Shown here: one piece after another, positions 1-23,370 of the stretch
Position numbering within the stretch: position 1 is the first letter of the stretch
How the letters are laid out: every line of letters begins with the position of its first letter
Assembly: GCF_019448235.1 (NCBI RefSeq)
Contig: NZ_CP080409.1
Coordinates: forward strand, 62,001-126,000
DNA from: Nocardioides panacisoli
GTDB taxonomy: Bacteria > Actinomycetota > Actinomycetes > Propionibacteriales > Nocardioidaceae
DNA length: 64,000 nucleotides
Direction: 5' to 3'
Notes under the pieces: generated by a model
Told to the model about the DNA's origin: nothing
Databases searched by the model: none
What the model saw: only the letters and a program-made list of their open reading frames with translations
Translations under genes and position numbers: made by a program

Positions 1-40
1 GTTCGCTGTAGGACGTTGTTGGACGCCTCGTCCGGGCGAG

Positions 41-62
41 TTTGTATCAAGAGTTCGTATCA
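41..62 (+). repeat. Left-end integrase-type repeats (putative attL)
   Basis: Two copies of a TTYGTATCA word lie here: TTTGTATCA at 41-49 and TTCGTATCA at 54-62. The second sits inside a 13-base word, AGAGTTCGTATCA (50-62), that recurs exactly at 21237-21249 next to the integrase gene. Matching repeats at both ends of a lower-GC, integrase-bearing segment suggest attachment-site or arm-type recombinase binding sites. The first 40 bases and bases 63-188 show nothing else recognisable. Confidence 0.5.
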
Positions 63-188
63 CCGGCGCTGAGCTGATCTGTCCCCGACGTGACGTAGAG
101 TCCCGGCAATGGCGAAACCCCGGCGATGTGGCCTGGGCCAGTGATCGTTCCGGGGTCTTCGAGGAAGAGGATACAGGAAGAGTCGGGT

Positions 189-881
189 GTGGCCAACGCA
201 GGTGGAGGCTCGGGCGACCCGGCGCCTGCCCGAGACTACGCGGCGCTGGCGCGTCTGCTCTCGGCTGAACGCCTCGGCTCGTACCTGCGGTGGAGCGGCG
301 GCGACGTACCGGCCGCGTTCGCGCTGTACGAGTGGAACATGGCGGCCTCTGCCGCCGTCATGCATACGACAGGAATGGTTGAGGTCGTCGTACGCAACGC
401 CATGGACCGCGCGCTCGTCGAAATGGGCGACGCGAGAGGTTGGCCGTCGTGGTTCGACCGCGCTCCACTCGACCAGCGAGGGCGCATCGACATCCACAGG
501 GCGCGCGATCGCGCGACTCGCTTCGGCAGCCAGCCCGAGATTCACGGCAAGGTGGTTGCCGAGCTGAGCCTCGGCTTCTGGCGCTACCTCACGGCATCCC
601 GATACCTCACGGCGCTCTGGACGCCGGCGCTGTATCGCGCGTTCCCTGCGGGGCCGGCCGACAAGCTGCAACAGCAGCGGGAGGTCGATCGGCACCTGAA
701 GAACCTCCTGTTGGTTCGGAACCGCGCCGCCCATCACGAACCGATCCACCGGAGGAACCTCACGAAGGATCTTGAGGCCTCTATCGAGGTCGCGTCGTGG
801 GTGGCTCCTGAGGCGGGGGAATGGGTTGGGGACCTGTCGACCATCGCCCGCGTCGTTTCGAGCCGACCCAATCGCAACTAG
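189..881 (+). CDS. Abi_2/AbiD-like HEPN-type protein (probable abortive infection)
   Basis: This is a predicted 230-residue protein of the Abi-like (Abi_2, HEPN-superfamily) type. A characteristic GFWRYL...LTALW segment lies around residues 121-137, and a basic R-N-R-x-x-H-H-E-P motif near residues 178-186 fits the HEPN R-x4-6-H RNase active site. Family members are linked to abortive infection, probably by cleaving RNA, but activity here is inferred. The GTG at 189 is chosen because an AGGAAGAG-like ribosome site precedes it. An in-frame ATG at 126 would add 21 residues of poor quality. The next gene begins within or just after its 3' end, so the two may be co-transcribed. Confidence 0.7.
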   Translation: MANAGGGSGDPAPARDYAALARLLSAERLGSYLRWSGGDVPAAFALYEWNMAASAAVMHTTGMVEVVVRNAMDRALVEMGDARGWPSWFDRAPLDQRGRIDIHRARDRATRFGSQPEIHGKVVAELSLGFWRYLTASRYLTALWTPALYRAFPAGPADKLQQQREVDRHLKNLLLVRNRAAHHEPIHRRNLTKDLEASIEVASWVAPEAGEWVGDLSTIARVVSSRPNRN

Positions 882-3800
882 GGCGCGGGATCGAGCGGAA
901 GCTTGCTCCGCCAAAGGCCGGCAAAGAGTCTGGCCTCCTCGATAGCGTGCTGGTCGTGGATGACGCGGCCGCTGACCAGGACGTCAACAAGCGCGTCTTG
1001 ATGGCGGTCATCCACATCATCGAGGCCTGGATGGAGCGCGATCGCGGAGCATTGGCGCGTATCAACGGGGGCGCGTCCAGGCCAGATTCGGTGCTGGGGG
1101 AGAAGAGCAAACGCGCCTACTCCGTGCTCAAGCAGTACCTACCGTCACATGCACACGCGAACCTTGTGGCAGGGATAGCAGGGATCGCTCCCCGTGCCAC
1201 AGCAGGCGTCGGCGAGACGGCGCGCCGTTGGGCTCGACCGGAAGATCGGGTACGGGTGGCGCGTGCGCTGCTGGCGTCGGCCGCAAGGGCGCAGAGCGCG
1301 GCCGAGGAACGCGAGGAACGGGCACGGATAGCGGCCGAGCTCGAGGCAGCGCGGCTGGCTGCCGAGGCCGAGCGGCTGGCGGCTGAAGAGGCGCGCCGCG
1401 CGGCTGAGGCCGAGTCGGAAGCCCGACGGCGAGCCGAACGGGCTCGGGTGCTTGCTCGCTACCGCGGCGAAGCGGACGCTGAGCTGCGGCGAGACTTCCT
1501 CGGGGCTGATGCCTGGTTCGACTCGTGGGACACAGGAGGGCACGTCGCGCGGAGCGACTTCGAGGACTGGAAGGCCGCGTTCGTTCAGAACTGGGCTCGC
1601 GAAGTCCTCCACGATGACAAGTTCGACATCCAACAGGCCCGAGCCGTCTCGACAACTTCACACGATCTACGGCTCGTTGCCCGGGCAGGTAGTGGGAAGA
1701 CCCGCACCATTGTCACTCGGGCCTTGTTCCTCCAGCTGCACTGCCGGGTCGATCCCGGCGGGATCCTGTTGGTTGCCTTCAATCGCAAAGCAGTCGAGGA
1801 GATCAGCAAGCGCCTAGGGGAGGCGCTCCCGAAGGGTGCTCGCCTGCCGCACGTCGTCACCTTCCATGCGCTCGCGTACGCGCTGCTACGGCCAGAGGAG
1901 GAACTTGTCTTCGATGACTCCGAATCGCTCGCCCAGTCGAGGAAGGTCCAAGCCGTCGTGAACGACCTGATCGTCGAGCGGAAGGACGACGTGCGGCGGG
2001 CCATGCTCGGTCACTTCACCGACGACTGGAAGCGGATCCAGCAGCGCGGATTGCACATGAGTCGCGAGGAGTTCTTCGCCAGCCGGGCCGAGGTAACGCG
2101 AGTGACGCTCGGTGGCGAGTACGTGAAGTCATTCGGCGAGAGACTGATTGCGAACACGTTGTTCGAGCACGGTGTCGAGTACAAATACGAGCGCAACTTC
2201 ACCCGGGGAGGCTTCAACTACCGACCCGACTTCACGGTGCTGGTCAACTGGAAGCCCCGCGTTGTCATCGAGTACTTCGGAATCACCGACGACCCCCAGT
2301 ACCAGCGCAACGCCGACACGAAGCGCGAGTTCTGGGCGCAGCAGAGCGACGTGGTGTTCCTCGAGTACGATCCGTCGCAGATCGTTTCGCTCGGCGAGGA
2401 GGGATTCCGCGATCAGGTGCTCGCGGCTCTGGACCATGCCGAGATCCCGCATCGCTCGCTTAGTGAGGACGAGATCTGGGAGCGGGTTCGCCAGAGAGCT
2501 ATCGACACCTTCAGCAAGACCTTGCGTGGGTTCGTCAATCGGGCCCGGCAGCACAACCTCAGCCCTGACGACATCCGGCAGCGCATGTATGCGCTACAAG
2601 ATCCCGGCGACGGGGTGGTTGCGTTCCTGGAGTTGGCAGGCGACGTGCTCGAGGAATACCTCAACCGAGCTCGGCGTGACGGCTTCGAGGACTTCAGTGG
2701 CGTCATGTGGCGGGCCGCCGCAGAGGTACGCCGAGGGCGCGCCACCTGGACCCGGGCAGGCGGGAAGGAGCACGGCGACCTTCGCGATCTTCGATTCATC
2801 CACGTCGACGAGTTCCAAGACTTCTCCGAGATGTTTATGGACTTCGTTCAGGCGATCCGCGTACAGGCACCTGGGTCCTCGCTCTGCTGCGTCGGTGATG
2901 ACTGGCAGGCCATCAATGGGTTCGCCGGAGCTGACCTGCGGTTCTTCGAGAACTTCGAGACTGACTTCCCGAAAGCGGTGACCCACCAACTGGTCACCAA
3001 CTACCGCTCCGGTGGTCGGATTGTGTCGGCGGGCAACGCGGTTATGGATGGCTTCGGCGAACCTGCCCGCTCGTTCCAATCGCGATCCGGCAGCATCCAC
3101 ATCGCCCGGCTGACCGACTTCGAGCCCTCGCCCACCGAGCGCCATGTCTTCCAGGGTGACGTCGGCACACCTGCACTCCTCCGCTTGATCAAGAGTGGCC
3201 TCAACGAGACGGAGGGCACCGTCGCAGTCCTGTTCAGACGAAATACCGTTCCCTGGTTCACCAACACTGGCCAAGGTGCCTTCGTGCGGAAGCTGGACGG
3301 CTACCTCACCCATCTCCGAGGGCACTTCTCGGAGGACGATGGCAAGCGGCTCGAGGTCACGACATCCCACAAGTACAAGGGGCGGGAGTCGGACTTCGTG
3401 ATCGTCGCCGACGCCGACAAGAAGTCATACCCGCTGATCCACCCGACGGTGGAGCTTTTCGAGGTCTTCGGTGACACCGTCGACAGCCTTACCGATGCTG
3501 ACCGCAGGCTGTTCTACGTCGCAACGACGCGCGCCGAGTCCTCGCTCTGCTACCTCGTCAGTTCCGAGGACCCCTCAAGCTTCCTCGGCGCGGTTATGGC
3601 CATGGCGCGGCCCGTGGACTGGCGAGCGTTGCCGATTGCCGTCAGTGACGCCGACGCCCAGGTCGAGGTGCGCGTCTACGACGGCTTCGAGGTACGTCAG
3701 CGGCTAAAGGACGAGTTCGGCTTCCAGTTCGATGAGTCGACGAAAGTCTGGTACGTCTTCCGTCCGGCGGATGGATTCGACTTCCGCCACATCCAACAAG

Positions 3801-3901
3801 TCCTGTCGTTCGTTGGGCCACGTCTGATCGAGGTCCGCGACGAGACCCAGCGTGTGATCCATCGTGCCGGGGCTCGGCTCGAGCGCGGCCGCCCGATGTA
3901 G
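821..3901 (+). CDS. UvrD/helicase IV-like SF1 helicase with inserted nuclease-like domain
   Basis: This is a large SF1 DNA helicase (1026 residues from the ATG at 821). An alanine/arginine/glutamate-rich coiled-coil region (about residues 150-215) precedes a UvrD core. The core shows Walker A (GSGKT, about residue 290), motif II DEFQD (about 662), GDDWQAI, a TNYRS motif, HKYKGRESDFVIV (about 850) and a final YVATTRAES motif (about 900). Between motifs Ia and II, near residues 455-500, there is an RPDF...VVIEYFG segment like the PD-(D/E)XK-type insertion of helicase IV relatives. About 90 residues follow the helicase core. The first 40 residues look non-native, so GTG 947 or 956 may be the true start, which would remove the 61-base overlap with the HEPN gene. 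The context suggests defence, but no named system is assigned. Confidence 0.85.
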   Translation: MGWGPVDHRPRRFEPTQSQLGRGIERKLAPPKAGKESGLLDSVLVVDDAAADQDVNKRVLMAVIHIIEAWMERDRGALARINGGASRPDSVLGEKSKRAYSVLKQYLPSHAHANLVAGIAGIAPRATAGVGETARRWARPEDRVRVARALLASAARAQSAAEEREERARIAAELEAARLAAEAERLAAEEARRAAEAESEARRRAERARVLARYRGEADAELRRDFLGADAWFDSWDTGGHVARSDFEDWKAAFVQNWAREVLHDDKFDIQQARAVSTTSHDLRLVARAGSGKTRTIVTRALFLQLHCRVDPGGILLVAFNRKAVEEISKRLGEALPKGARLPHVVTFHALAYALLRPEEELVFDDSESLAQSRKVQAVVNDLIVERKDDVRRAMLGHFTDDWKRIQQRGLHMSREEFFASRAEVTRVTLGGEYVKSFGERLIANTLFEHGVEYKYERNFTRGGFNYRPDFTVLVNWKPRVVIEYFGITDDPQYQRNADTKREFWAQQSDVVFLEYDPSQIVSLGEEGFRDQVLAALDHAEIPHRSLSEDEIWERVRQRAIDTFSKTLRGFVNRARQHNLSPDDIRQRMYALQDPGDGVVAFLELAGDVLEEYLNRARRDGFEDFSGVMWRAAAEVRRGRATWTRAGGKEHGDLRDLRFIHVDEFQDFSEMFMDFVQAIRVQAPGSSLCCVGDDWQAINGFAGADLRFFENFETDFPKAVTHQLVTNYRSGGRIVSAGNAVMDGFGEPARSFQSRSGSIHIARLTDFEPSPTERHVFQGDVGTPALLRLIKSGLNETEGTVAVLFRRNTVPWFTNTGQGAFVRKLDGYLTHLRGHFSEDDGKRLEVTTSHKYKGRESDFVIVADADKKSYPLIHPTVELFEVFGDTVDSLTDADRRLFYVATTRAESSLCYLVSSEDPSSFLGAVMAMARPVDWRALPIAVSDADAQVEVRVYDGFEVRQRLKDEFGFQFDESTKVWYVFRPADGFDFRHIQQVLSFVGPRLIEVRDETQRVIHRAGARLERGRPM

Positions 3902-3933
3902 TGCGGCTTCGATCGCCTCGAAGACGTGCAGAA

Positions 3934-6900
3934 CTATTCGGAGTCGCTCGGCTCCTCGTCGCCTGGGTCGGCACTGGGCTCGAACGTCCACGACCGAGCC
4001 ACCTCGGCAGTCAAGACTCCGGTGAGGTGGACGGCGCCTTGGGGCTGAACCTTCAGGTGGTGGAGCGGATCGTGGATGATCCGGACCTCCGGGTTCCCCT
4101 GCCCCGCCTCGACATTGCCAACGAGTACCAGGAAATAGTCATCCGTCACGGCCATTGCGCGCTCGATCTGGCTGTTCTCCAGCTTCACTGTGTCGGGGAT
4201 CGGCCCTTGGTGGACCTTCAACTCGTAGTACCGCCCACGGTCGTCGACTGCGTCGGCGCCGACGTTTGGTTGGTGACGCACGTCGGTCAGGGCGAGGCCG
4301 TCGCTGTCAAGCACCATGCGGAGCAGATCCAGTCCGGCGCTCTCGCGCTCCTGAGCCGTGTAGTTTAGCGGACCTCTGCCGCCCGTCCTTGCCTGCTTGG
4401 GCTGGTCATACTTCGGTTCTGTCAGCTTCGACTTGCCGCCGGAAGAGGAACCGGTTGCCCCTGCGGCGTTCGCTGATTCGTCACCCCGGGGCCTGCCGAG
4501 GATGAGGTTCCCAGCCGTCCGGAGGACCAGCGCTTCCGTGTCCACGAGCGTGCGTGCCGGCTGTGGGGTTTGATGAGGCGCTGACGTGCCATTAACGGCC
4601 TTAGCGCCATTCCTCTGCTTCCGTGACGTCTTCCTAGGCCCTGCCTCGTTCGACGAGGGCAGGGAGATCAAGGCGGCCTGGCTCTTCTCCCGTCGGAGCT
4701 TCTCTTCGGCCGCACGCTCGGCTGCGGAAACGACAAGCTCGGCCTGTGCGCCTATTTCCGCGTCTGCCCATGCGACCACCCATGCTTGGTCGATCTCTCG
4801 AGGGCTAGAGCCGAAGAGCGATGCGAGTGCGTAGCCAGCGCAGCGTGGTCGATGAGCCGCCTCGGGGGATTCGACGAGGAGCGTGCCACGGCTGACGTCG
4901 AGCCACGAGGGGACCGGCACCTGATGGCCGGCGCTGTCGGGGATGGCCACATGGACTCGAAGCTCGGGGAGCACTGCGACTTGGAACTCGGCGAGTTCTT
5001 CCCACGTGACGCTGATGGTCTCCGCTGTCCGCGGTGCGCTGACCGTCAGATCTGTTTGGAGGTTGCGCACTGCTCGCCTGAAGGTCTCAGTGAGATCCAG
5101 GTCGTATGTCGCCGAACCCTCACCGAGCACACGCGCCTGAGTGCCGTCGATCGACGTGAGAGCGAGGGGCTCGATCAGAGGCTTGAGTTGCGTCAGCGGG
5201 CCACCCGGCTGCCAGATGGGCACCTTCGTCTTGAGCGCTTCCGCCAGCAGCGGATTCTCAACCGCGTAGACGGGGCGGTTGCTCATCCATCCGGTTCCAA
5301 CGTAGACCGGTTGACGGCGTAGGCGGCCAACGCTCTCGGCAGGTGTTCGGGCGAGAATCCGCAGCGCTTCGAGCATGATCTGCCGCTCGTCAGCGTCCAT
5401 GACCCGACGTCCTGCAAGCTTCTTGATCACGCGCTTCGCGTCGTCCGCGTCGGGTGGCTGGACTCCCAACGCTGCCCAGAGCGGCTCGGCACCGGCCACT
5501 GCGGGGACGAATGCCGCGAGGTCTCCGAATATCGGGGGACCCGACCGGGTTGCCGAGATTCGTCGCCAGCCGTGGCTTGTGATGATCAATCCGTGGCCGC
5601 GATCAAAGTCGGCCCGCACCCCGCTTGCCTGTCTGTTGCCGATAGTCCGCCGAGCGCCTGTGCCGCGGACCTCGGCCGCGAGCGCCTGATATAGCGGTGC
5701 TGCGAGGTCGGCCGCCTCTGTGACGGCCAGGGGGCGGTCGCCGGTCGTGTCGGGTGTCAACGACTGCCCCGAGAGGTGAGCTTCTCGAATCGCTATCAGC
5801 TGGGCGATCAGCGCCGCGACGGTCGGATTGCCCGCAACTCCGAGAGCGGCAAGCACGTCGCGAGACGCGGCATCGTCGTATGCATCTGCCAGATACTGAG
5901 CGGGATCAGAGCCGTGCAAGGCCTCGTTCGCCTGGGTCTTGAGGCGTAGCTCACCGGGGGCAGCTTGTCTTCCGCGACCGTTTCCAAGCCACGGGACAGA
6001 TGCCGCCTGGCTGATCCACCACGCGTCGACCTCGCCCTTGTCGATCCACCCGTTGTACGGCACGACGGCAGACACCTTCGCGTACGGCTCCAGACGGTCC
6101 CAGTTGCGCGCGAGACAGCCGAGCAGCGCGGTAGCCCTCTGGCGGCGCAGCGCACCGTTCCTTTCGGCTGCGATGCTCGCCAACACCTTGTCCAGGTCTG
6201 GTGCAGCGTGGTCATTGCGGGTGCACTGAGCTCCGACCTCGTCCATCTGCCTCTTCCGGCGGGCAGGCGAGCCCGGCGCATCCCGCAACAGGCCCCGCCC
6301 GTAGTAGACGAACTGCTTGTAGTGAAGGTCGTCGTCGGGGAACTCCTGCAAGCGAGGTACGTTCTCTGCGCCGAGCAGCCGGAACAGCTTTTGCGGGCCG
6401 AGTCCGGCTCGTCCTGCGGGGGTGCGCAGGTCCTTCAGGTAGCGGCGGTGGAGCCAGACCAAGTCGGGGGTCCGCTTAGCGGCGTTCGACCAGGTGCCCT
6501 TCTCCCGCTCGATTAAGTACGAGTCTGCGGGCCGGGCATGGATGCGCTTCGGCTTGCCGTCGGTACCGTACACAGTCGCTTCAAGGCGGATCGCACGGCC
6601 GATCCCCACGCCCAACCCCGGGCGCAGCGACTCGTCGACGGACTCCAGTGCCGCACGCAGCGCGTTGGCTTGATCGTCGCTGAGGGGGTCCGGCAGCTCG
6701 ATGCCCATCCGCCCCGCCGCGGCCAGCACACGTAGGGCGTCGTCGTTGGTGGCTGTCCGTCGCAGGGTGTCGTTGTTGAGCAGCCACTCGGCCACTCCCG
6801 GCCACCCAGGACGTGCCGTGTAGTCAGGATGCAGGTGGGCGCCGAACCCCAACGTTGACCAAAGTGGCGCGGCGTCCTCGGGAAGGAGCACGCCCAAGTC

Positions 6901-8520
6901 CGACGCATCCGCGGGGCTGACGCGTCGGCCGTCATCGAGGACGAGGCAACTTGAGTCGATGAGCTCCACCTCCAGATCCTCGTCTTCCTCCTCGTCACGC
7001 GTAGCTACTTCGACAACGGCGGCTGTCAGATCGGCGATGAACTCAACCGTTCGATCGTCGGCGTTCAGTAGCTGAACGGCGCTGGCCACGTCGACAACGA
7101 CCGGCGTCTCGGCCCCGAGGTTGTCGAGCTCGGCGATGACGTCACGCCACCTGCCGTCGTGCGACCGGTTCGCGACAACGACGACATCGGCCGCGCCAGC
7201 GAGTCCGCGGATGTCGTTGTCAGTCAGGATGTTGGTGAGGGCGGGTGTCTCGAAGGCGAGATCTCGCAACGGGTGGGCGCTGCCTTCGTCGCCAACGAGT
7301 CGGAGTCGTTCCGCCAACGCAAGACGAGCTCGAGTCATCAGAGACTCGCTGAAGGCGTCGTTGAGTTGCCCAGTCGCCATCGCGTTCGACGCGTACTCCT
7401 CGTCGAGCGGAACAGACGCCCAAGCGTTGCTCGCATCCAAGCGAAACTGGTCGAGAATCGCGTCCCGCCAGAGATCGGCCACGAGTTCTACCAGGTGAAG
7501 ATTCCATTGACTGTCGGCGAGGTCGCGGCGGTTGGCGAGTGGATCGAACTGTCCTGCAAAACGGAAGGGCAGGCCGACCGATCGCACCGGCAGGCCGACG
7601 TGGGCATGCCCCTCATCCCCGACGAACCTCGCGAACGCCACGGACACCGGCGTCGTGTCATGGTGCGACTTGCCGGCTCGGTGGCCCACCGGGCTCTTGG
7701 CGTTGCGCGTATAGAGCACCCAGGACCGGTCCTCCGCGGTGACCGTCATTCGGGTTGCCTCGCCGCCTTCAAAGTTCAGGGTCTCCGCGTCGGTGCGATC
7801 GATGGCGAGCCGAGCCACGGCTTGCCCGTCCGGATCGAGCAGGGTGACCTCTTGAAGGGTGCGAAGGAAGATCAAGCCCGCGTCTCCCCACGACTGGAGC
7901 CATCGCGCCACCTCGTCCTGGGTGGTGGCGCCATGCTGGAAGGGCACTACGAACACGGTCGTCGCAGACGCCGGCTTGTTGGGCCAACGGTCGTCGTGTT
8001 CCGCCGGCTTTAGGGTGCTCCGCCCGAGACGGATGTGGAAGTGCCCGTTGTGGCCCTCCAGGGTCTCCGAGAGCGACTGCAGAGTCTTGAGCCCGATGCC
8101 GAATCGCCCCAGCTTCTCGGCCTTGCTGGTCTTCTCGCTCAGCCAGGGGATCGTGAGGCCCCAGACGTCTGGCAGCGTGAAGTCGTTGCCGTTGTGGCCC
8201 AAAAGCAGTCTGTCGTTGTCGACCAGGAAGTAGGCACTGTCCGCGCCCTCGTCGTCTGCGTTCTGCAGCAGCTCAGCGAGCCCTTGGAGGCGGTCATCCG
8301 ACAGTTGGGCAGCGTTGCCCGATGCGCGCCCCAGAGCACCACGGATGCTGGGAGGGAGCTTCTGGAACTCGGCTGCCAGCGCAGTGAGGCTGGCCGACGC
8401 GGCCGCTGCGTCGACCGGCGCAGGCATGCGATCCCAAGGGGTGTCGGGATCATGGTGGACAACCTCGCGGGCAGCGTCAGCTGCCTCTGCCTCGCTGAAC
8501 CACCACGTGTCTTCGCCCAC
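3934..8520 (-). CDS. Sacsin/Hsp90-type ATPase with C-terminal DUF3883-like domain
   Basis: This is a 1528-residue protein. Near residue 85 it has LLQNADDEGAD, the N-box of sacsin-like GHKL ATPases, and near residue 143 GRFGIGLKTLQ, the lid/G-box. The middle ~1000 residues match nothing I recognise. A lysine/serine/glycine-rich linker leads to a C-terminal domain (about 1390-1500) with NVGADAVDD...YYELKVH, which fits DUF3883, a PD-(D/E)XK-type nuclease fold. An ATP-driven sensor fused to a nuclease-like end is typical of uncharacterised defence proteins; function is inferred. It starts at a GTG, 13 bases after the AlpA-like gene, so it is the last gene of a three-gene operon. It converges on the UvrD-like gene with a 32-base gap. 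Confidence 0.8.
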   Translation of the reverse strand: MGEDTWWFSEAEAADAAREVVHHDPDTPWDRMPAPVDAAAASASLTALAAEFQKLPPSIRGALGRASGNAAQLSDDRLQGLAELLQNADDEGADSAYFLVDNDRLLLGHNGNDFTLPDVWGLTIPWLSEKTSKAEKLGRFGIGLKTLQSLSETLEGHNGHFHIRLGRSTLKPAEHDDRWPNKPASATTVFVVPFQHGATTQDEVARWLQSWGDAGLIFLRTLQEVTLLDPDGQAVARLAIDRTDAETLNFEGGEATRMTVTAEDRSWVLYTRNAKSPVGHRAGKSHHDTTPVSVAFARFVGDEGHAHVGLPVRSVGLPFRFAGQFDPLANRRDLADSQWNLHLVELVADLWRDAILDQFRLDASNAWASVPLDEEYASNAMATGQLNDAFSESLMTRARLALAERLRLVGDEGSAHPLRDLAFETPALTNILTDNDIRGLAGAADVVVVANRSHDGRWRDVIAELDNLGAETPVVVDVASAVQLLNADDRTVEFIADLTAAVVEVATRDEEEDEDLEVELIDSSCLVLDDGRRVSPADASDLGVLLPEDAAPLWSTLGFGAHLHPDYTARPGWPGVAEWLLNNDTLRRTATNDDALRVLAAAGRMGIELPDPLSDDQANALRAALESVDESLRPGLGVGIGRAIRLEATVYGTDGKPKRIHARPADSYLIEREKGTWSNAAKRTPDLVWLHRRYLKDLRTPAGRAGLGPQKLFRLLGAENVPRLQEFPDDDLHYKQFVYYGRGLLRDAPGSPARRKRQMDEVGAQCTRNDHAAPDLDKVLASIAAERNGALRRQRATALLGCLARNWDRLEPYAKVSAVVPYNGWIDKGEVDAWWISQAASVPWLGNGRGRQAAPGELRLKTQANEALHGSDPAQYLADAYDDAASRDVLAALGVAGNPTVAALIAQLIAIREAHLSGQSLTPDTTGDRPLAVTEAADLAAPLYQALAAEVRGTGARRTIGNRQASGVRADFDRGHGLIITSHGWRRISATRSGPPIFGDLAAFVPAVAGAEPLWAALGVQPPDADDAKRVIKKLAGRRVMDADERQIMLEALRILARTPAESVGRLRRQPVYVGTGWMSNRPVYAVENPLLAEALKTKVPIWQPGGPLTQLKPLIEPLALTSIDGTQARVLGEGSATYDLDLTETFRRAVRNLQTDLTVSAPRTAETISVTWEELAEFQVAVLPELRVHVAIPDSAGHQVPVPSWLDVSRGTLLVESPEAAHRPRCAGYALASLFGSSPREIDQAWVVAWADAEIGAQAELVVSAAERAAEEKLRREKSQAALISLPSSNEAGPRKTSRKQRNGAKAVNGTSAPHQTPQPARTLVDTEALVLRTAGNLILGRPRGDESANAAGATGSSSGGKSKLTEPKYDQPKQARTGGRGPLNYTAQERESAGLDLLRMVLDSDGLALTDVRHQPNVGADAVDDRGRYYELKVHQGPIPDTVKLENSQIERAMAVTDDYFLVLVGNVEAGQGNPEVRIIHDPLHHLKVQPQGAVHLTGVLTAEVARSWTFEPSADPGDEEPSDSE

Positions 8521-8533
8521 GTCGGCAATCTAC

Positions 8534-8857
8534 TCAGGCGGACCGACGCCGTCGCTTGGCTTGCGGCAGCATCTGGCTCAGGGAGGTTCCTTCGCTGTCC
8601 AGGCGAACGAGAGCTTCGAGAGCCGCATTGGCGAGTTCCATGCGCTTGTCCTCCCAGGACAGTAGGTGGTCAAGGCGCCACCGATCGGGGTGCGTCATCA
8701 CGGGCGGCGGGATGAGGTCGCGGTCCTTGAGGTTCTGGTAGCCTTTCGTCTTGCCCCACCCGTAGCGCGCCATCACGTCGCGCGCGTGGAGGAACACGTG
8801 CCGCGGATCGACGCCGGGGTCGAGGCTTCGAACATTTCGGTCATCAATGCGGCTCAT
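8534..8857 (-). CDS. AlpA/MerR-like small DNA-binding protein
   Basis: This is a 107-residue protein whose residues ~20-75 fit a winged-helix, excisionase-like fold: ARDVMARYGWGKTKGYQNL followed by RDLIPPP and DRWRLDHLLSWEDKR. Such proteins act as recombination directionality factors or transcription regulators in integrative elements. The C-terminus is basic (KRRRR). Its start overlaps the end of the upstream zinc-ribbon gene by 14 bases and its stop is 13 bases before the large ATPase, so it is probably co-expressed with both. Its place inside the defence operon, far from the integrase, argues for a regulatory role as well as or instead of excision. Confidence 0.65.
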   Translation of the reverse strand: MSRIDDRNVRSLDPGVDPRHVFLHARDVMARYGWGKTKGYQNLKDRDLIPPPVMTHPDRWRLDHLLSWEDKRMELANAALEALVRLDSEGTSLSQMLPQAKRRRRSA

Positions 8858-9440
8858 GATCCACCTCGAGCGGGTCCTGTGGCTCTTGATCCGGGTCGCC
8901 CTGGTTGTAACTCGGCGTGGTGGGCACCGGGCCGACCGGGGTGGCGCCAGTGATGACGTCGACCCCGCTTCGCAGTTCGAGGATGGCCTGATAGCAGACA
9001 GCCCATCCGGGATCCTCTGTCGGGTACTTCAACTCGCGGATGAGGTCGCTCAGATGGCCGAGTACGGCGGCACAGAGCGTCGGGTCGGCGACGACAACCT
9101 CAACGCAGTACGACGGGTTGGCTCTACAGAACTTTCGCAGGACGTCCTTGGATGTGTACGTCGTCCGGCGGTCGCGCTGCGCCTTGCCGGCAAGCTCACG
9201 TTCTAGCTCGAAAGACAGGACGGGAGCCGCGTGGTGTGGCGATGGAGCTGACAGGTCGTCGGCGGACTTGGCCGAGGCCCGTTCGCGCTCGATCCAAGGG
9301 TCGACGTCGTGCCGCTCCTCGTAGGCGGCCTGCTTGCACGAGTCGCTGCAGTAGGTACGTGGTCGGCCGCGCTTGCGCTGCTTGAGGGGTGAGTCGCAGA
9401 CCGGGCATCGACGTGCCGCCTGTGTCGCTGGGTTGTCCAT
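8844..9440 (-). CDS. Zinc-ribbon protein of unknown function
   Basis: This is a predicted 198-residue protein with an N-terminal four-cysteine ribbon, CPVC...YCSDSC (residues ~12-33). An unrecognised region of about 100 residues and a proline/aspartate-rich acidic tail follow. The ATG at 9438-9440 is chosen because GGAAAGGA lies about eight bases upstream. A longer in-frame reading to 9557 would translate the repeat array at 9486-9559 and is less likely. It is the first gene of the minus-strand operon with the AlpA-like and Hsp90-type genes. Its role may be nucleic-acid binding or regulation, but this is inference only. Confidence 0.6.
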   Translation of the reverse strand: MDNPATQAARRCPVCDSPLKQRKRGRPRTYCSDSCKQAAYEERHDVDPWIERERASAKSADDLSAPSPHHAAPVLSFELERELAGKAQRDRRTTYTSKDVLRKFCRANPSYCVEVVVADPTLCAAVLGHLSDLIRELKYPTEDPGWAVCYQAILELRSGVDVITGATPVGPVPTTPSYNQGDPDQEPQDPLEVDHEPH

Positions 9441-9485
9441 GGCGAGTCCTTTCCGGTGGTCGATGGCAGCACCGAAGCCCGGGGC

Positions 9486-9559
9486 GCTCACCAGTTCGCT
9501 CACCAAACCGCTCACCAAGCGCACTTGGGCGGTCACGATTTGGTAACGGCCGCTCACCA
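9486..9559. repeat. 12-bp iteron-like GCTCACCA repeats upstream of the defence operon
   Basis: GCTCACCA occurs at 9486-9493, 9498-9505 and 9510-9517 with an exact 12-base period, and again at 9552-9559. Between them an inverted repeat CCAAG...CTTGG occupies 9516-9529. The array lies 46-119 bases upstream of the zinc-ribbon gene start. It could be an operator array for the AlpA-like or zinc-ribbon protein, or arm sites for the recombinase. No coding gene is supported in 9441-9644. Confidence 0.5.
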
Positions 9560-10513: not shown

Positions 10514-10760
10514 ATACTATGCGCTGACCGCGCCGGACCCTCTCGGCGTACTTCGTCAGGTGGCGTGCGGAGATGCTCCCGCCGTCCCGCTCGAACAGGG
10601 CGACGATGGTTCGCTTGGTGACGTCCAGGTCATGACCCTCGTCGGGGACGAGCCGATCCGGGTCCTGTCTTCTGCGATGTTCTTCACGGCTGGCGCGATG
10701 GCCGCCTTCAGAGCCGCCTCGTTGATCTTGAACTTCAGATCACTCTCCGTGTGGTTGATT
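10455..10760 (-). pseudogene. Frameshifted remnant of an unidentified gene
   Basis: Read on the minus strand from about 10758, one frame gives [19 protein letters not shown] and on to KNIAED. Near 10,665 the sensible reading moves to another frame, giving [18 protein letters not shown] and then [19 protein letters not shown], with a TAG at 10455-10457. Two adjoining protein-like frames joined by a one-base shift, with no start codon at the 5' end, suggest a decayed gene. It fills most of the gap between the truncated gene at 9998 and hsdM. Confidence 0.35.
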
Positions 10761-10792
10761 TTGCTAGATCACTATGCAAACATAACAAACAT
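10755..10792 (+). promoter_or_regulatory. AT-rich hsdM promoter/operator with CAAACAT repeats
   Basis: A strikingly AT-rich patch directly precedes the hsdM start. It holds a TTGATT -35-like word (10755-10760), TATGCA (10773-10778) and two direct copies of CAAACAT (10777-10783 and 10786-10792), the second covering the first bases of the start codon. The methylase carries an N-terminal XRE-type HTH, so these repeats are candidate autorepressor sites. The spacing of the promoter words is not ideal, and the exact -10 is uncertain. Confidence 0.4.
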
Positions 10793-12611
10793 GACAGACA
10801 CTGCGACCGTCCCCTCAACCCTCCAGGCGATCCGTGCTGCGCTCGACCTGACTCAGGCTGAGCTGGCCGAGCGCCTCGGTGTCTCGTTCGCCACGGTCAA
10901 CAGGTGGGAGGGCGGAGCGAACAAGCCACAGAGGGCCCAACTGGCCAAGATCACTGCACTGGCCGAAGAGGCCGGCGTCGACCTCGGCGATGCTCCGGTC
11001 GTCGGCGGCGCGGTTGTGACCCGTCGTCGTGGCCGTCAGGCCAAGTCGGCGACGCCGACCACCAAGCCGATGGAGCAGATGCTCTGGGACGCGGCCTGCT
11101 CGATCCGTGGCGAGAGGGATGCGCCGAAGTTCAGGGACTACCTGCTCCCGCTGCTGTTCCTGAAGCGCCTATCCGACGTTTTCGATGACGAGATCGACCG
11201 CCTCGCCGAGGAGTACGGCGACCGCGAGGTTGCGATCGAGATCGCCGACAACGATCACAGTCTCCTCCGCTTCTACCTCCCGCCCGAAGCTCGGTGGGCA
11301 GTCATCAGCGGCCGGGCCCAATATGACTGGCCAGACGACGAGCGTGGTCGCTCGACCCGCCCCCGCGACGTCGGCGAGCACCTGACCAAGGCGGTGCGTG
11401 CAGTCGTCCGCTACAACCCGACCTTGGCTGGCGTCATCGACGTCGTCGACTTCGCGGCCGAGCGCAACGGCGAGCGAGACATCAACCCCGGCAAACTCAA
11501 CGGTGTCGTCGAGACCTTCTCGGACCCGCGCTACCGCCTCGGCCTCGCTGATGTGCAACCCGACTTCCTCGGTCGCGCATACGAGTACCTCCTCCGCAAG
11601 TTCGCCGAGGGTTCCGGCCAGAGCGCCGGCGAGTTCTTCACGCCGACCGAGGTGGGCTTCCTCATGGCCCGGATCTTGCGCCCGAAGCCCGGCCAGGCGT
11701 GCCACGACTACGCCTGTGGATCGGCCGGCCTTCTCATCAAACTCCAACTCGTTGCCAACGAGCTTGATCCGACCGCGAAGGTTCCCCTGAAGCTCTACGG
11801 GCAGGAACTTCAGGCCGAGAGCTACGCGGTCGCGCGGATGAACGCGATCATCCACGACATGGACATCGACCTCCGGCGTGGCGACACCATGATCAATCCG
11901 AAGTTCCGTACCCCGTCTGGCTCACTCGACCAGTTCGACCTCGTTGTCGCCAATCCGATGTGGAACCAGCCCTTTGGGGCCAGCATCTTCGAGGACGACC
12001 CGTACGACCGCTTCATCAGGCATGGCGGAGCGACTTCGGGCAAGGGTGACTGGGCGTGGGTCCAGCACACGTCGACAGTCCTCAAGGACGGAGGGCGTGC
12101 CGCCGTGGTTCTCGACACCGGCGCTGTCACCCGCGGCTCCGGCTCCAGGAACCAGGACAAGGAACGCAACATCCGCAAGTGGTTCGTCGACCAGGACCTC
12201 ATCGAGGGCGTCATCCTCATGCCGGACAACCTGTTCTACAACACCATGGCCGCGGGCGTGATCGTGGTGCTCAACAAGCGCAAGCCCGAGTCCAAGAAGG
12301 GCCAGATCACGCTCGTCAATGCCAGCAAGCGCTTCACGAAGGGCAAGCCCAAGAATCACCTCGCTGAAGAGGACGTCGCCGATCTCGCGAGGCTCTTCAA
12401 CACGGGCGAGCCTGTAGAGGGCGAGGTCGCAGTAATCGACCTCCAGCAGGCCGCAGATGCGGACTACAACCTCAGCCCGAGTCGCTGGATTCAGCAGGCA
12501 AGTGCTCTGGATCACCGCACCGTCCCGGAGCTGCTGAGCGAACTTGTCGAGTTGGACAGCGCTGCGCGACAGATCGATGAGGCGCTCGCGAACATGCTGG
12601 TGAAGCTGTGA
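10791..12611 (+). CDS. hsdM: Type I restriction-modification methylase HsdM with N-terminal XRE HTH
   Basis: This is a 606-residue DNA N6-adenine methyltransferase subunit. Residues ~8-60 form a Cro/CI-type helix-turn-helix ([20 protein letters not shown]), which is not part of classical HsdM. The methylase follows: [18 protein letters not shown]-binding motif [11 protein letters not shown] (about 306-315) and catalytic motif IV as NPMW (about 388-391, the NPPF/Y position). The ATG at 10791 puts the HTH at the N-terminus and follows the AT-rich promoter patch; an in-frame upstream extension to 10560 is not protein-like. The stop overlaps the hsdS start by four bases. It heads a coupled six-gene operon, and the HTH suggests it may control its own expression. 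Confidence 0.92.
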
Positions 12612-13893
12612 GCGCGACCGACTGGGCGACGAAGCCCTTGGGGGAACTCTTCGCGGTAGGTGCAGGCAAGACCATGTCGGCGGCAGCGCGAGCCGGCGAG
12701 AACAAGGTGCCGTTCCTTCGTACTTCGAATGTTCTGTGGGACGAGATCGATGTTGCCGTCGTCGATCAGATGGCGATTCCTGAGCGCGAGTTGATCGAGA
12801 AGAGTTTGAAGGTTGGGGACCTGCTCGTGTGCGAGGGGGGCGAAATCGGTCGTGCTGCCGTCTGGGAAGGCGGGCAGGAACCCATGTCCTTCCAGAATCA
12901 CCTGCACCGTCTCCGCCCGAAGGTCGATGACGTCGATCCCCGATTCTACGTCTACTTTCTCCAGGCGGCCTTCACGCAGTTGGGCATTTTCGGGGGCGCC
13001 GGCAACAAGACCACGATTCCCAACCTGTCCTCGGGCCGCCTCAAGGCCTTGGACGTCCCGCACCCGCCGCTCCCTGAGCAGGTCGCAATCGCCGACGCTC
13101 TGCGGCACGTCCAGAGGGCGCGACGACTCAACGCGCGGCTGATCGCGACAACCGAACAGTTGAAGACCGCGGCTATGCGCCAGTTGTTCTCGCGGGGGCT
13201 GCGGGGGGAGTCGCAGAAGGAGACCGAAGTCGGGCCGATCCCCGGGAGCTGGGAGCTTGTCGAACTCGGCGAGGTCCGCGAGTTCCTCCAGTACGGAACA
13301 TCGGTCCACTGCACCTTGGACCCCAAGGAATACCCAGTCCTCAGAATTCCGAACATCGAACCGGGTCGTGTGAACGACTCCGAGCTCAAGTACTGCGACC
13401 TCCCTGAGGCGCAGGCGAAGAAGTACCTGCTTGAGAACGGCGACCTGTTGTTCATTCGGACGAATGGCGTCATCGACCGCCTCGGCTCCTGTGCGGTCTA
13501 CGCCGGCGCTCCGGAGTCTGCACTGTTCGCGTCCTACCTGATCCGCGCACGGCTGAAGGCTAGAGCGCTACCGAAGTTTGTCGCGTACTTCTATGGTTCG
13601 ACGCTCGGGACGTCACTGGTCGCGGGGCGAGCGACGCCGGCCTCGGACGGCAAGTACAACCTCAACACCGGAACGATCGACGCGCTGCCACTTCCGCTGC
13701 CGTCGACACTTGAGGAGCAGCAGGAGATCGTGGACGTGCTCGACGCCCTCGATCGCAAGATCGACTTGCATCGTCGCAAGCGCGAGGTACTCGACCAGCT
13801 CTTCAAGTCGCTGTTGCACAAGGTGATGACCGGCGAGGTCTCGGTCGACGACCTCGACCTGAGTGCGCTGCCGACGTTCGAAGGGAGCGCTGC

Positions 13894-13897
<4 letters not shown>
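12608..13897 (+). CDS. hsdS: Type I restriction specificity subunit HsdS
   Basis: This is a 429-residue DNA-recognition subunit with two target-recognition halves. The first spans about residues 1-195 and ends in the conserved [13 protein letters not shown] helix; the second spans about 205-415 and ends in [35 protein letters not shown] links the halves and [12 protein letters not shown] closes the protein, both usual for HsdS. The two halves probably read the two parts of a bipartite site. The GTG start overlaps the hsdM stop (GTGA) and the stop overlaps the hsdR start (ATGA), so the three subunits are translationally coupled. The recognition sequence cannot be read from the protein. Confidence 0.93.
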
Positions 13898-16838
<2,941 letters not shown>

Positions 16839-16839
<1 letters not shown>

Positions 16840-17168
16840 TGGCACGCCCCAAGATGAGCCTGACCGCTGACCAGGTACTCACCCGCAAGGCGATGGCCTG
16901 GGCGGCGAAGATCCGCGTGAACCCCACCCGAGTCGTGATCGCTGAGCTGGAGAACAAGTGGGGTTCCTGCGCCCCTGACGGCGTGGTCACTCTGGCTGGA
17001 GATCTCGTCGACATGCCCGAGGAGTTCCAGGACTACGTCGTCGCCCACGAGTTGCTCCACCTGCGCTACCGCTCCCACGGCAAAGCGTTCAGGGCCATGA
17101 TGACCGCCCTCGTGCCCGACTGGCGGGAGTTGGAGGCATCAAGTCCCGTACGGGAGGTGCGCAAGTGA
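16839..17168 (+). CDS. YgjP/DUF45-type HExxH metallopeptidase
   Basis: This is a 109-residue predicted zinc metallopeptidase. The core reads NKWGSC...AHELLHLRYRSHGKAF, with HELLH as the zinc motif and the downstream His of RSHG as a likely third ligand. Short YgjP-like (DUF45) peptidases are often found beside type I restriction genes, but their substrate is not established. It begins on the last base of the hsdR stop codon and its stop overlaps the AAA+ gene start by three bases, so it is firmly part of this operon. Confidence 0.8.
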
Positions 17169-18394
17169 GTGAAGCGGGGAACGTCGAGGGGCGTTCCGAC
17201 GGGCATCTGATCAAGGTGCTTGAGGTGCTCGATGGGGGCGAGGCGTTCCTCGGCCGTACATCGAACGGCGGCACTGCCCGATTCTCGCTGGGACAGCTGG
17301 CCGATATTCGTCGGGGATCTGTTGTCTTCGTGAGCGAGGACAGTTGGGAGGTAGTTCCTGCCAGTGCCTGGCCCGAGATTCCCGAGGTGGCAATTATCCG
17401 GAAGATTCTCGACGACGGACTACTGATCGAGTACGGGGCTGGGATTCGGTTCGTCCCCGGTCATCCGTCTGTCGAGGTCGCCGTCGGAAACACGGTCCAG
17501 TTCAGCGAGGTCGACGGCGTGCTCCGGGTACTTGAACCGGGTCCGGTCCGGTACAGGGATGAGGGCGTCGGAGACGACAGCATTGACGAGTACCTCGTCA
17601 CTTCCGGCGCCGATGGTCCGACATTCGCCTCGTTCGCCGGCTACCACGACGTTCGGCAGCGCGCAGTTGAGTTGATCGAGACCCAATTGAAGAACCGCGA
17701 GCGTTTGTCGGCTCTGGGTGCCCGGCCTGTGAAGGGCATCATCTTCACCGGTCCTCCTGGGACCGGAAAGACGCACCTCGCACGGGTCATCGCACACGAG
17801 TCCGGAGCCTCGTTCTACCTGATCAGCGGGCCGTCCATCGTCAGCAAGTGGGTCGGCGACAGCGAGGAGGCGATTCGCCGGATCTTCCGGTCTGCAGCGA
17901 AGAAGGAGAGCGCGATCATCTTCTTCGACGAGATCGACAGCATCGCCGAGCGCCGCACGGAGGAATCTCACGAGGCGTCCAGGCGACTCGTTGCGCAACT
18001 GCTGACGGAGCTCGACGGCTTCGATCAGAGCGGCTCGAATCTCATCGTCATCGCGGCCACGAACCGGATCGAGAGTGTTGACGAAGCGCTCCTTCGACCC
18101 GGCCGGTTCGACTGGGAAATCGCTTTCGGGATGCCGACCGCTGAAGATCGGCTAGAGATCCTGCAACTTGGCGCGGGCCAGATGAAGACCGAAGGGACGC
18201 TGCCGCTGGAGTCTGTGGCCGCCGCGAGCGACGGCTGGTCAGCGGCAGGACTTGCGTCGCTCTGGACGGAGGCTGCCCTCTTGGCAGCGGCCGATGGTCG
18301 CATGGCCATTGTTGATGAAGACGTCGCGCAGGCTTTCGAACGTGTCGCCCGGCGGCCGATGCGTGAGGCGAAGAGAGTCACGAGTGGCTCGTAA
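17165..18394 (+). CDS. CDC48/Mpa-like AAA+ ATPase
   Basis: This is a 409-residue protein. The first ~150 residues are beta-rich and not clearly assigned (possibly OB-like). A classical AAA module follows: Walker A GPPGTGKT (about 196-203), Walker B IIFFDEID (about 252-259), a sensor-1 ATNR region and the second region of homology RPGRFD (about 312). The motif set matches CDC48, FtsH, Mpa/ARC-type unfoldases rather than McrB. A protein remodeller in a type I restriction operon, next to a metallopeptidase, suggests handling or turnover of the restriction complex; this is inference. The GTG start overlaps the previous stop and the next gene starts 11 bases before its end. Confidence 0.85.
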   Translation: MSEAGNVEGRSDGHLIKVLEVLDGGEAFLGRTSNGGTARFSLGQLADIRRGSVVFVSEDSWEVVPASAWPEIPEVAIIRKILDDGLLIEYGAGIRFVPGHPSVEVAVGNTVQFSEVDGVLRVLEPGPVRYRDEGVGDDSIDEYLVTSGADGPTFASFAGYHDVRQRAVELIETQLKNRERLSALGARPVKGIIFTGPPGTGKTHLARVIAHESGASFYLISGPSIVSKWVGDSEEAIRRIFRSAAKKESAIIFFDEIDSIAERRTEESHEASRRLVAQLLTELDGFDQSGSNLIVIAATNRIESVDEALLRPGRFDWEIAFGMPTAEDRLEILQLGAGQMKTEGTLPLESVAAASDGWSAAGLASLWTEAALLAAADGRMAIVDEDVAQAFERVARRPMREAKRVTSGS

Positions 18395-19745
18395 TAGTTG
18401 GTGGCGTCGGCTCCGTGATCGATGGCGCGCGAAGCGCGCACGGAAGGTCGTCGAAAAGGGCCGCCCACTTCGCGAGTTTGTGTACCTGGACGAGGTCAGC
18501 CTCACGAGCCTGCTCGTGTCTCAGCGAGACACGATTCCGGAGCATGTAACGAGCGGCAGGTCCGTCTCCGAGCAAGCCGAAGTCTCGGCGAAGGCCTCGG
18601 TGGATGCAGTGGCTGCCAAGGCTGAGAGCGCGACCCGCTATCAAACCGCGAACTCCAGTTCGGTCGAGAGCTTACGCAAGGCGGTGGTCCAGACCTTGTT
18701 CAACGAGCTCCGCGACGATGCGTGCCTGCCGATGTCGCTACACGACGATGCGACCGGCCCTGTGGTTCTCGCATGCGACGGCTCGTCCCAGGATGGTGCC
18801 CTCCGCGGGTGGCGAGGGGATGGCCTGCTGCGGGGACAGCTGATCGAGCTGGAGGTCGTGCTCGAAGTTGACCCCGTGTTCAAGCTCGGGACGATGGTGT
18901 CGGAGTTTTCCGCAATGGCCGCCGAGTATCCGCAAATGGCGGGCCCCTCTGGGCTTGCCATGCTCGACGAGATCGAGCCGGTGAAGAAGGTCCTTGATCG
19001 TCTACTAGCGGGGCTGATTCCCATCAGGGCGAGGGCCTGCAATTACTCGGTGGCAACAATGAGCGGGCAGGACTATGTGGTCCGTTCCCGTGCGGCCGCC
19101 GAGCACGGGGTTCCAGTCCGTCCGCTCGAAGTCGTCGGTGTTACGGAACACATCGGCTACTGGAAGGACATCCGGCGAGTGCTCTTCTCGTCGGCCCAGT
19201 TCAAACTCCTGTGCCGCGTTGCGCGGCCTGGTCTCCACGAAACCTGGACCCCGGTCAAGGTCGCCCATCTGTTCGGCGACGTCGCGCCAACTTTGGTCCA
19301 GCAGATCGACGCACTGAGCAAGGCCGGCACGTCCGGGCTGCCCGGTCTTCCTGCTGGGCAGGTACACCTCGCCCTCCTGCGGGCTCTCGCAATCTACGCC
19401 GACGAGATTGCCCCGGCGGCCAATGATGCTATCCATTCCGCAGAGACCGTCGAGCTCATAGAGATCGCAGCGCGAGTCTCCAACGAGGCATCGCCCACCG
19501 CTCAGCGGCAGGCATTTGCTGAGGTTCGGGACCTCCTCGTTGAACGCAACCCTGGGCTCGCGCCCACGCCTGCGCAGGACCTTGATGCCCGTCGGAACGC
19601 CAGAGAGCACGCTGGCCTCCCTGTCATGCCAGGTGGTGCCGATGGTGCGACTGCGACAAGCACACACGACGACTCGCCGGGTGGCCGGGCGAACGCCGAC
19701 GCGGCGAAGCTGATTGACGTCGAGGTCGTGGCCATCTACTGGTGA
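18384..19745 (+). CDS. Unrecognised protein of the extended restriction operon (possible DUF6414-like)
   Basis: This is a 453-residue protein starting at GTG 18384, inside the end of the AAA+ gene. The N-terminus is highly basic (RNSWWRRLRDRWRAKRARK), and LREFVYLDEVSLTSLLVSQ follows (residues ~32-50). The YLD...SLL pattern resembles DUF6414-type proteins seen near defence genes, but I am not certain. A serine/alanine-rich region (about 55-100), a mixed alpha/beta body and a low-complexity tail complete it. No catalytic motif or membrane segment is visible. Its coupling to the AAA+ gene suggests it is that protein's partner or substrate adaptor. Confidence 0.6.
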   Translation: MARNSWWRRLRDRWRAKRARKVVEKGRPLREFVYLDEVSLTSLLVSQRDTIPEHVTSGRSVSEQAEVSAKASVDAVAAKAESATRYQTANSSSVESLRKAVVQTLFNELRDDACLPMSLHDDATGPVVLACDGSSQDGALRGWRGDGLLRGQLIELEVVLEVDPVFKLGTMVSEFSAMAAEYPQMAGPSGLAMLDEIEPVKKVLDRLLAGLIPIRARACNYSVATMSGQDYVVRSRAAAEHGVPVRPLEVVGVTEHIGYWKDIRRVLFSSAQFKLLCRVARPGLHETWTPVKVAHLFGDVAPTLVQQIDALSKAGTSGLPGLPAGQVHLALLRALAIYADEIAPAANDAIHSAETVELIEIAARVSNEASPTAQRQAFAEVRDLLVERNPGLAPTPAQDLDARRNAREHAGLPVMPGGADGATATSTHDDSPGGRANADAAKLIDVEVVAIYW

Positions 19746-21197: not shown

Positions 21198-21236
21198 CGC
21201 GACCGACCTCCTACGCTGGCGACGAGGAGCTACGAG

Positions 21237-21282
21237 AGAGTTCGTATCAACTGTTTGTATCATCGGGCCCATATTGATACAA
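21237..21282. repeat. Right-end integrase-type repeats (putative attR)
   Basis: AGAGTTCGTATCA (21237-21249) repeats the left-end word exactly. TTTGTATCA follows at 21254-21262 and an inverted copy, TTGATACAA, at 21274-21282. The cluster sits between the integrase start and the chromosomal thioredoxin-domain gene (21310), which probably marks the right boundary of the island. The island therefore abuts, and may supply part of, that gene's promoter region. Confidence 0.5.
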
Positions 21283-21309
21283 GCATCACTGGATCGGAGC
21301 ACTGCCCTG

Positions 21310-23370
<2,061 letters not shown>

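Follow-up and report, generated by a model that had tools for sequence, protein, structure and literature searches.

The left part of the 64,000-nucleotide window analysed here (positions 62001–126000 of the single 3.57-Mb contig that makes up the genome of Nocardioides panacisoli) is occupied by a site-specific integrative element that spans about 21.5 kb and has integrated into the 5′ end of a gene of the DUF255/thioredoxin-domain family, which we take to be yyaL. The left half of this element is loaded with several independent defence-type units, and the five genes considered here, coding for a HEPN/Abi-type protein, a UvrD-like helicase, a 1528-residue ATPase, an AlpA-like protein and a zinc-ribbon protein, are separate cargo genes on a mobile element and not one defence machine. 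All five open reading frames (ORFs) open where a first-pass annotation of the DNA had placed them and, as it also described, two rightwards-transcribed genes face a compact group of three leftwards-transcribed genes tail to tail, with stops at 3901 and 3934. The block consists of one known system (Tiamat, assigned by profile match), one unlinked helicase, and one RNA–toxin pair that is worth experiment. Our preferred explanation, which we regard as probable, is a yyaL element carrying independent units: a HEPN toxin with an RNA of about 50 nt upstream of it, the ATPase TmtA (the name presumably stands for Tiamat), and perhaps a separate UvrD helicase. Genomes, loci and proteins are referred to by G, L and P numbers, with G000 being the window's own genome and C1 its contig.

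A predicted structured RNA upstream of the HEPN gene

A 40-nt covarying hairpin, overlooked by the first-pass annotation, lies directly upstream of the HEPN gene. Its frame, (A/G)CCCCGG ... CCGGGG(U/C), recurs upstream of HEPN genes and is present by a fixed rule in 24 of 31 loci; of the remaining seven, L170 is recovered by a covariance model, L185 and L187 have a variant that is discernible by eye, and the other four have none by eye. The model was built from five copies (model R1 gives the window copy, itself a seed, 72.5 bits) and identifies 14 copies at E-values up to 0.001, five of them the seeds, and one (in L176) not upstream of its HEPN gene. The alignment of these 14 copies, itself fitted to the structure, has 96.1% paired cells; both sides have changed in 9 of the 15 pairs (3.9 ± 1.1 in shuffles), and there are 25 doubly changed cells (6.4 ± 1.9 in shuffles). 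When the partners are slid by 1–3 columns, pairing falls to 29–54% and the doubly changed count is at most 1. Compensatory changes are evident between individual copies, for example CGAU/AUCG to CAGU/ACUG in L176, and UGGC/GCCA to CAGC/GCUG in L169 and to UGAC/GUCA in L179 and L184. A second RNA subtype, at five loci, is distinguished by a longer stem, in which 2 pairs are doubly changed. No Rfam 15 family matches the hairpin in window positions 1–400 or in 18 HEPN loci.

The association with HEPN genes is also seen when the proteins are disregarded. A covariance-model scan of 335 family genomes, independent of proteins and with E up to 0.001, returned 26 matches in 23 genomes, and a HEPN gene lies within flanks of about 1.5 kb for 10 of the 12 matches of at least 28 bits vs none of the 14 weaker ones; two of the ten are from one genome (L199 and L212), and the two of the 12 that lack a HEPN gene are L193 and L194. 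At L194 the hairpin is mutated and a broken HEPN-like remnant is seen by eye only, such that both look decayed. We note that the two copies of the HEPN–RNA pair in G252 (L199 and L212) are about 5.9 kb apart and in opposite orientation.

Several points count against the preferred explanation. There is no such hairpin upstream by eye in 4 of the 31 HEPN loci (L055, L176, L180 and L183), shuffled sequences fold as well as the window hairpin with its flanks (z −0.64), and further pair types show no excess (11 vs 13.4 in shuffles) in the structure-fitted alignment. The ten HEPN-adjacent matches include the seeds G000 and G056 and the same-sequence loci L196–L198, and L193 (58.8 bits) has the RNA and a −10 box and no HEPN ORF. 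We consider it very likely that the hairpin is a functional RNA.

The adjacent gene codes for a putative RNase toxin with the HEPN motif RNRAAHH, in which 20 aligned homologues show no variation at R177, N178, R179, A180, H182 and H183 and next to none at A181. All 20 match the PADLOC model PD-T4-5 (best E 2.2e-12) and one matches AbiD, and there are weak Pfam matches to Abi_2 (15 of 20; best E 0.0042, below cut-off) and HEPN_Swt1 (13 of 20; best E 0.0021). Counting the window's own genome in both cases, homologues are found in 9 of the 198 family genomes (E ≤ 1e-20) and in 37 of the 342 order genomes (E ≤ 1e-15). The ORF could open at 126, and the start at 189 (230 residues; P0241) is the better choice because 126–188 reads through the conserved hairpin. 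The predicted N-termini of four HEPN proteins in the databases (P0242, P0243, P0296 and P0302) resemble the hairpin in translation, as does the window ORF at 126–188, and these are probably annotation artefacts.

Of 24 loci, 13 have a TAnnnT box on the minus strand at 10–11 nt from the hairpin (mean 0.68 and maximum 5 in 5000 shuffles, a comparison weakened by the relatedness of the loci, with shared descent not corrected for), and 21 have one at 9–16 nt. It is also found at 11 nt in seven of eight model-scan loci, some of the seven being duplicates of one sequence or of sequences already counted, and L194 is the one that lacks it. The strand assignment is weakened by the three loci (L056, L171 and L182) that have no such box within 9–16 nt, and by a strict sigma-70 consensus scan that finds no promoter here. 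A minus-strand promoter would place the RNA start a few nucleotides before the hairpin, and its end at GGGGUUU. Because the box stands at a near-fixed distance, we infer that the RNA is transcribed away from the toxin gene, an orientation that the sequence moderately favours; the divergent RNA would therefore also be antisense to the leader of the toxin mRNA.

An alternative that we think somewhat unlikely is that the RNA acts on the toxin-sense strand in the manner of AbiF and its antitoxin RNA RCd22, with an excess of leader ending in a terminator-like hairpin binding HEPN, and rare read-through providing the toxin mRNA; in that case, the −10 box on the minus strand would serve either as a second promoter or as a site for protein binding. 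The best-studied AbiF system does have this same-strand arrangement (PMC12373285, as far as its accessible text describes), pyrimidine-rich bases follow the hairpin on the sense strand too, and L181 has one U–G pair on that strand. However, three cells that are C–A or A–C in the sense orientation are G–U on the minus strand (L051, L170 and L176), a three-to-one balance of non-standard cells in favour of the minus strand that is based on numbers too small to decide, and plus-strand TAnnnT boxes upstream of the hairpin cluster little, with at most 2 at one distance, whereas the minus-strand boxes cluster at 9–11 and 14–16 nt.

It is improbable that the hairpin is instead a DNA-level feature common to HEPN genes, such as a regulator's operator or a two-way terminator, with no functional RNA. 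The outer 7-bp arms are palindromic and a binding site would also covary, but pairing is kept in helices of 7, 4 and 4 bp that have asymmetric internal loops and end loops varying from 4 to 17 nt, and a terminator requires neither a conserved inner helix nor a fixed promoter distance.

Our preferred reading remains a divergent RNA. In this model an RNA of about 50 nt, whose transcription most likely runs divergently from the toxin gene, would bind and silence a HEPN dimer; being complementary to the leader of the toxin mRNA, it may also reduce toxin expression. Takeover of the cell by a phage would deplete the short-lived RNA, and the freed HEPN toxin would cut RNA and bring the infected cell to a stop. 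By analogy with AbiF, the chances are somewhat in favour of the RNA neutralising the HEPN protein. The 40-nt hairpin is testable, with its co-variation visible between copies.

TmtA and UvrD as separate cargo

The first-pass annotation viewed the HEPN, UvrD and ATPase genes as parts of a single candidate defence module, undescribed so far, that it could not match to a named system. Their description as defence-type parts is borne out (a PD-T4-5-matching HEPN protein, a UvrD helicase and a TmtA ATPase), and we too can put no name to the full combination. The proposed check of co-occurrence within 10 kb, when run, gives the outcome that the annotation had named as refuting a module: the homologues occur independently and, outside the window, none of the loci examined has them together. 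At 44 loci of ATPase relatives, neither HEPN nor UvrD is found in the surrounding sequence of up to 10 kb (single-sequence tblastn, E up to 1e-3), with 11 of the loci ending early at contig ends. Likewise, no UvrD or ATPase gene is found within about 8–9 kb of HEPN relatives at eight loci, and no HEPN or ATPase gene lies near the sole other UvrD in 341 family genomes, within about 14 and 18 kb on its two sides. ATPase homologues are present in 2 of 198 family genomes.

The ATPase is by its match to the PADLOC TmtA model PDLC03968 (1354.6 bits over residues 6–1507, the full length) a member of an already described family. Its N-terminus is a sacsin-type GHKL ATPase, as first annotated, with 66.9 bits to NF047352 (NCBIfam cut-off 50) and an E-value of 3.7e-6 to sacsin in the PDB; the score to PF25794 is 21.6 bits, below the cut-off of 32.8. 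The C-terminus had been described as DUF3883-like, which none of the profile libraries searched names; its modelled fold matches PD-(D/E)XK nucleases instead, with invariant D/E/K residues and a core fold that carries the D and the E-x-K. We have seen no paper describing such a C-terminus in TmtA, and this predicted domain comes from the present analysis. TmtA could be pictured as a GHKL ATPase that would sense infection and change shape, licensing the C-terminal nuclease, which would then cut DNA. The gene is also found on the yyaL elements L004 and L005, followed by a similar regulator gene, which in L005 is an HTH_3 gene plus Peptidase_M78; L005 also encodes a SIR2_2 protein of 1169 residues.

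The helicase assignment of the UvrD-like protein stands (UvrD helicase domain, E 6.5e-35; a superfamily 1A, SF1A, fold). The overlap with the HEPN gene that had been proposed holds only if translation begins at the ATG at 821; the database protein (P0121, 981 residues) starts at 956, leaving a gap of 74 nt after the HEPN stop. The nuclease-like insertion (residues 393–471) fares less clearly, being modelled as a helix, several strands, a helix and a strand (predicted local distance difference test 57–89 per block); the order of elements is compatible with a nuclease and P424, D425 and E439 are invariant, but there is no lysine two residues after the glutamate. This reading comes from the secondary structure of the model, and the protein may be a third, separate helicase–nuclease.

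There is little to recommend a two-gene pair of the HEPN–RNA unit and UvrD, with UvrD as a DNA-end sensor or processor beside the toxin and TmtA separate. The two genes are on the same strand with the 74-nt gap between them, but the gene upstream of the G286 UvrD (81% identity) is a different one, the 35 kb read there contain no HEPN gene, and UvrD is absent beside eight HEPN loci of 31–58% identity. That all three genes form one new multi-gene system is very improbable and already largely refuted, as their adjacency in this one genome and compact tail-to-tail layout are set against the lack of a common neighbourhood at 44 TmtA, eight HEPN and one UvrD loci.

The yyaL element and its other genes

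The element is recognised as site-specific and about 21.5 kb long because its integrase adjoins yyaL, direct repeats flank it, and the integrases of its relatives are placed in the same way. Beyond the window's left edge, a yyaL-like gene is represented by its 5′ part, which breaks off after the CHWCHV codons; at the right begins an intact yyaL-like gene whose 5′ end comes from the element. Both copies are terminated by the 18-bp direct repeat TGCCACTGGTGCCACGTG (the left copy at C1:61910–61927), and G+C per kb is 0.61–0.69 over window positions 1–21000 vs about 0.69–0.78 on both sides. The divergent tyrosine integrase scores above the Pfam cut-off for Phage_int_SAM_3 and below it for Phage_integrase. 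Of 341 family genomes, 33 (among them that of the window) encode an integrase homologue, and in 29 of 30 integrase loci read the gene is divergent and at most 150 bp from the yyaL start, the exception being a G008 copy. This integrase family is thus a marker for finding more cargo, some of it defence genes. Coordinates of all features are listed in the table.

Features of the window's left part (feature, window coordinates, strand, basis or remark)
Predicted small RNA	108–161	−	hairpin 117–156, helices of 7+4+4 bp; ends and strand inferred
TAnnnT −10 box, TATCCT on minus strand	168–173	−	11 nt from hairpin
Possible −35 hexamer TTGGCC	191–196	−	17 bp from −10; overlaps HEPN start; read from sequence
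HEPN/Abi_2-type putative RNase toxin, 230 residues	189–881	+	homologue alignment, PADLOC PD-T4-5, weak Pfam matches
UvrD/helicase IV-like SF1 helicase, 981 residues	956–3901	+	UvrD helicase domain match
PD-(D/E)XK-like insertion in UvrD, residues 393–471	2132–2368	+	model secondary structure; invariant P424, D425, E439
TmtA (Tiamat) ATPase–predicted nuclease, 1528 residues	3934–8520	−	PADLOC PDLC03968, 1354.6 bits
Sacsin-type GHKL ATPase domain of TmtA, residues 81–155	8056–8280	−	NF047352, 66.9 bits
C-terminal PD-(D/E)XK domain of TmtA, residues 1384–1512	3985–4371	−	modelled fold
AlpA-like DNA-binding protein, mobile-element backbone	8534–8857	−	AlpA label by eye; neighbourhood comparison
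Zinc-ribbon protein	8844–9557	−	weak zinc-ribbon matches, below cut-off
Type I restriction-modification genes hsdM, hsdS, hsdR	10560–16839	+	profile matches
YgjP-like metallopeptidase, AAA ATPase, DUF6414 protein	16662–19745	+	same order in G018
Tyrosine integrase	19788–21317	−	true start probably near 21203
yyaL-like gene, 5′ end supplied by element	21310–23370	+	
18-bp attachment (att) repeat, right copy	21457–21474	+	left copy outside window

The AlpA gene belongs to the element backbone. The protein has no match in the profile libraries searched; by homology it is found in 12 of 198 family genomes (two matches are weak, with sequences not fetched), and it is always accompanied by the yyaL integration site. 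At each of the 12 loci read (nine G-numbered genomes, the window, L004 and L005), the AlpA region of 24–42 kb includes the 5′ end of yyaL as a copy or a remnant, which in G185 amounts to only 17 residues. The genes near AlpA vary, with TmtA in L004 and L005, AbiEii in L082 and L088, and others elsewhere. Additional genes in several relatives of the element code for a TrwC-type relaxase (Pfam E 1.2e-49 in L004, from Nocardioides sp. T2.26MG-1), an XRE regulator and, beside AlpA, an excisionase-like HTH_17 protein. In the element of the window, tblastn detects neither an HTH_17 gene nor a separate XRE gene, and none of its unassigned ORFs is of relaxase size; the zinc-ribbon gene occupies the place of the relatives' HTH_17 gene.

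The HsdM ORF (10560–12611) opens with an XRE-type helix-turn-helix domain ahead of HsdM_N, and the start of the G018 homologue also matches the XRE query; the product is possibly a self-regulating methylase. The YgjP, AAA ATPase and DUF6414 genes follow hsdR in an order identical to that in G018, with 73–91% identity, and may form one unit with the type I system. G018 (C1 1038100–1077999; L091 and L089) has a yyaL element that shares this hsd–YgjP–AAA–DUF6414–integrase half and has other genes beyond AlpA.

Comparison with known systems

The window ATPase resembles Tiamat in being a single large protein with an N-terminal sacsin/GHKL ATPase and a full-length TmtA match, and the only difference seen is sequence divergence. 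Tiamat is described in the accessible part of a survey as enriched in Actinobacteria and of unknown mechanism (PMC10482375), and the conserved nuclease triad predicted at its end gives such a system a direct active-site test. The UvrD-like protein has the SF1A fold of Gabija GajB and the UvrD/PcrA helicases, and many GajB models match its helicase part. It differs from these in adding an N-terminus of about 200 residues and the nuclease-like insertion, and a search of the neighbouring genes at the window identified no GajA.

PD-T4-5 has been described as a plasmid-borne distant relative of AbiF/D with toxin–antitoxin-like abortive infection (Abi) defence (PMC9519451), and all 20 aligned HEPN homologues match its PADLOC model. 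The protein is shorter, however, at 230 residues vs a 309-position model, and the available portion of that description mentions no RNA partner for PD-T4-5.

There is also a likeness to the type III-like AbiF–RCd22 and AbiF–AbiFr pairs. In these, RCd22 is reported to neutralise AbiF by direct binding, R202 and H207 of AbiF are reported as key for toxic activity, and the RNA has two abiF motifs and lies on the same strand as the toxin gene (PMC12373285, in the text available). The window pair similarly joins a putatively Abi_2-type HEPN protein with an R-x4-H motif (R177 and H182/H183 of the R-x4-6-H pattern, invariant in 20 of 20) to an adjacent short structured RNA, whose hairpin frame is present in 24 of 31 loci and which is seen in both the covariation and the model scan. 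In L169 and L186, two tandem hairpins can be seen by eye ahead of a single HEPN gene, which recalls the two motifs of RCd22. There are also differences: the Abi_2 match of the window protein is weak and below cut-off, the hosts are Actinomycetes vs Bacillota and Pseudomonadota in the cited study, as far as the text available of it shows, and the RNA is apparently divergent from the toxin gene, with its promoter-like box on the opposite strand. RF03085 (abiF motif) has no match at E up to 5 in 18 HEPN loci, or up to 10 in window positions 1–400. Because of this, and because the orientation may be opposite, the pair is better regarded as a variant than as a member of the AbiF systems, and it may work as they do.

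We see an even chance that Actinomycetes harbour a distinct and widespread class of RNA-controlled HEPN toxins, in which a divergent antitoxin RNA of about 50 nt, with its own promoter and a terminator-like end, belongs to an uncatalogued RNA family of several structural subtypes matched to their toxins. This would form a separate branch of AbiF-like systems, from which Cas13 is thought to have descended; AbiF is described as the root of Cas13 in a review (PMC12737573, in its accessible text). The literature found, in the parts available, does not describe RNA-guarded HEPN toxins in the window's phylum, and if the RNA is the toxin's antitoxin, then RNA-guarded HEPN toxins of the kind described as ancestral to Cas13 would extend to a new phylum.

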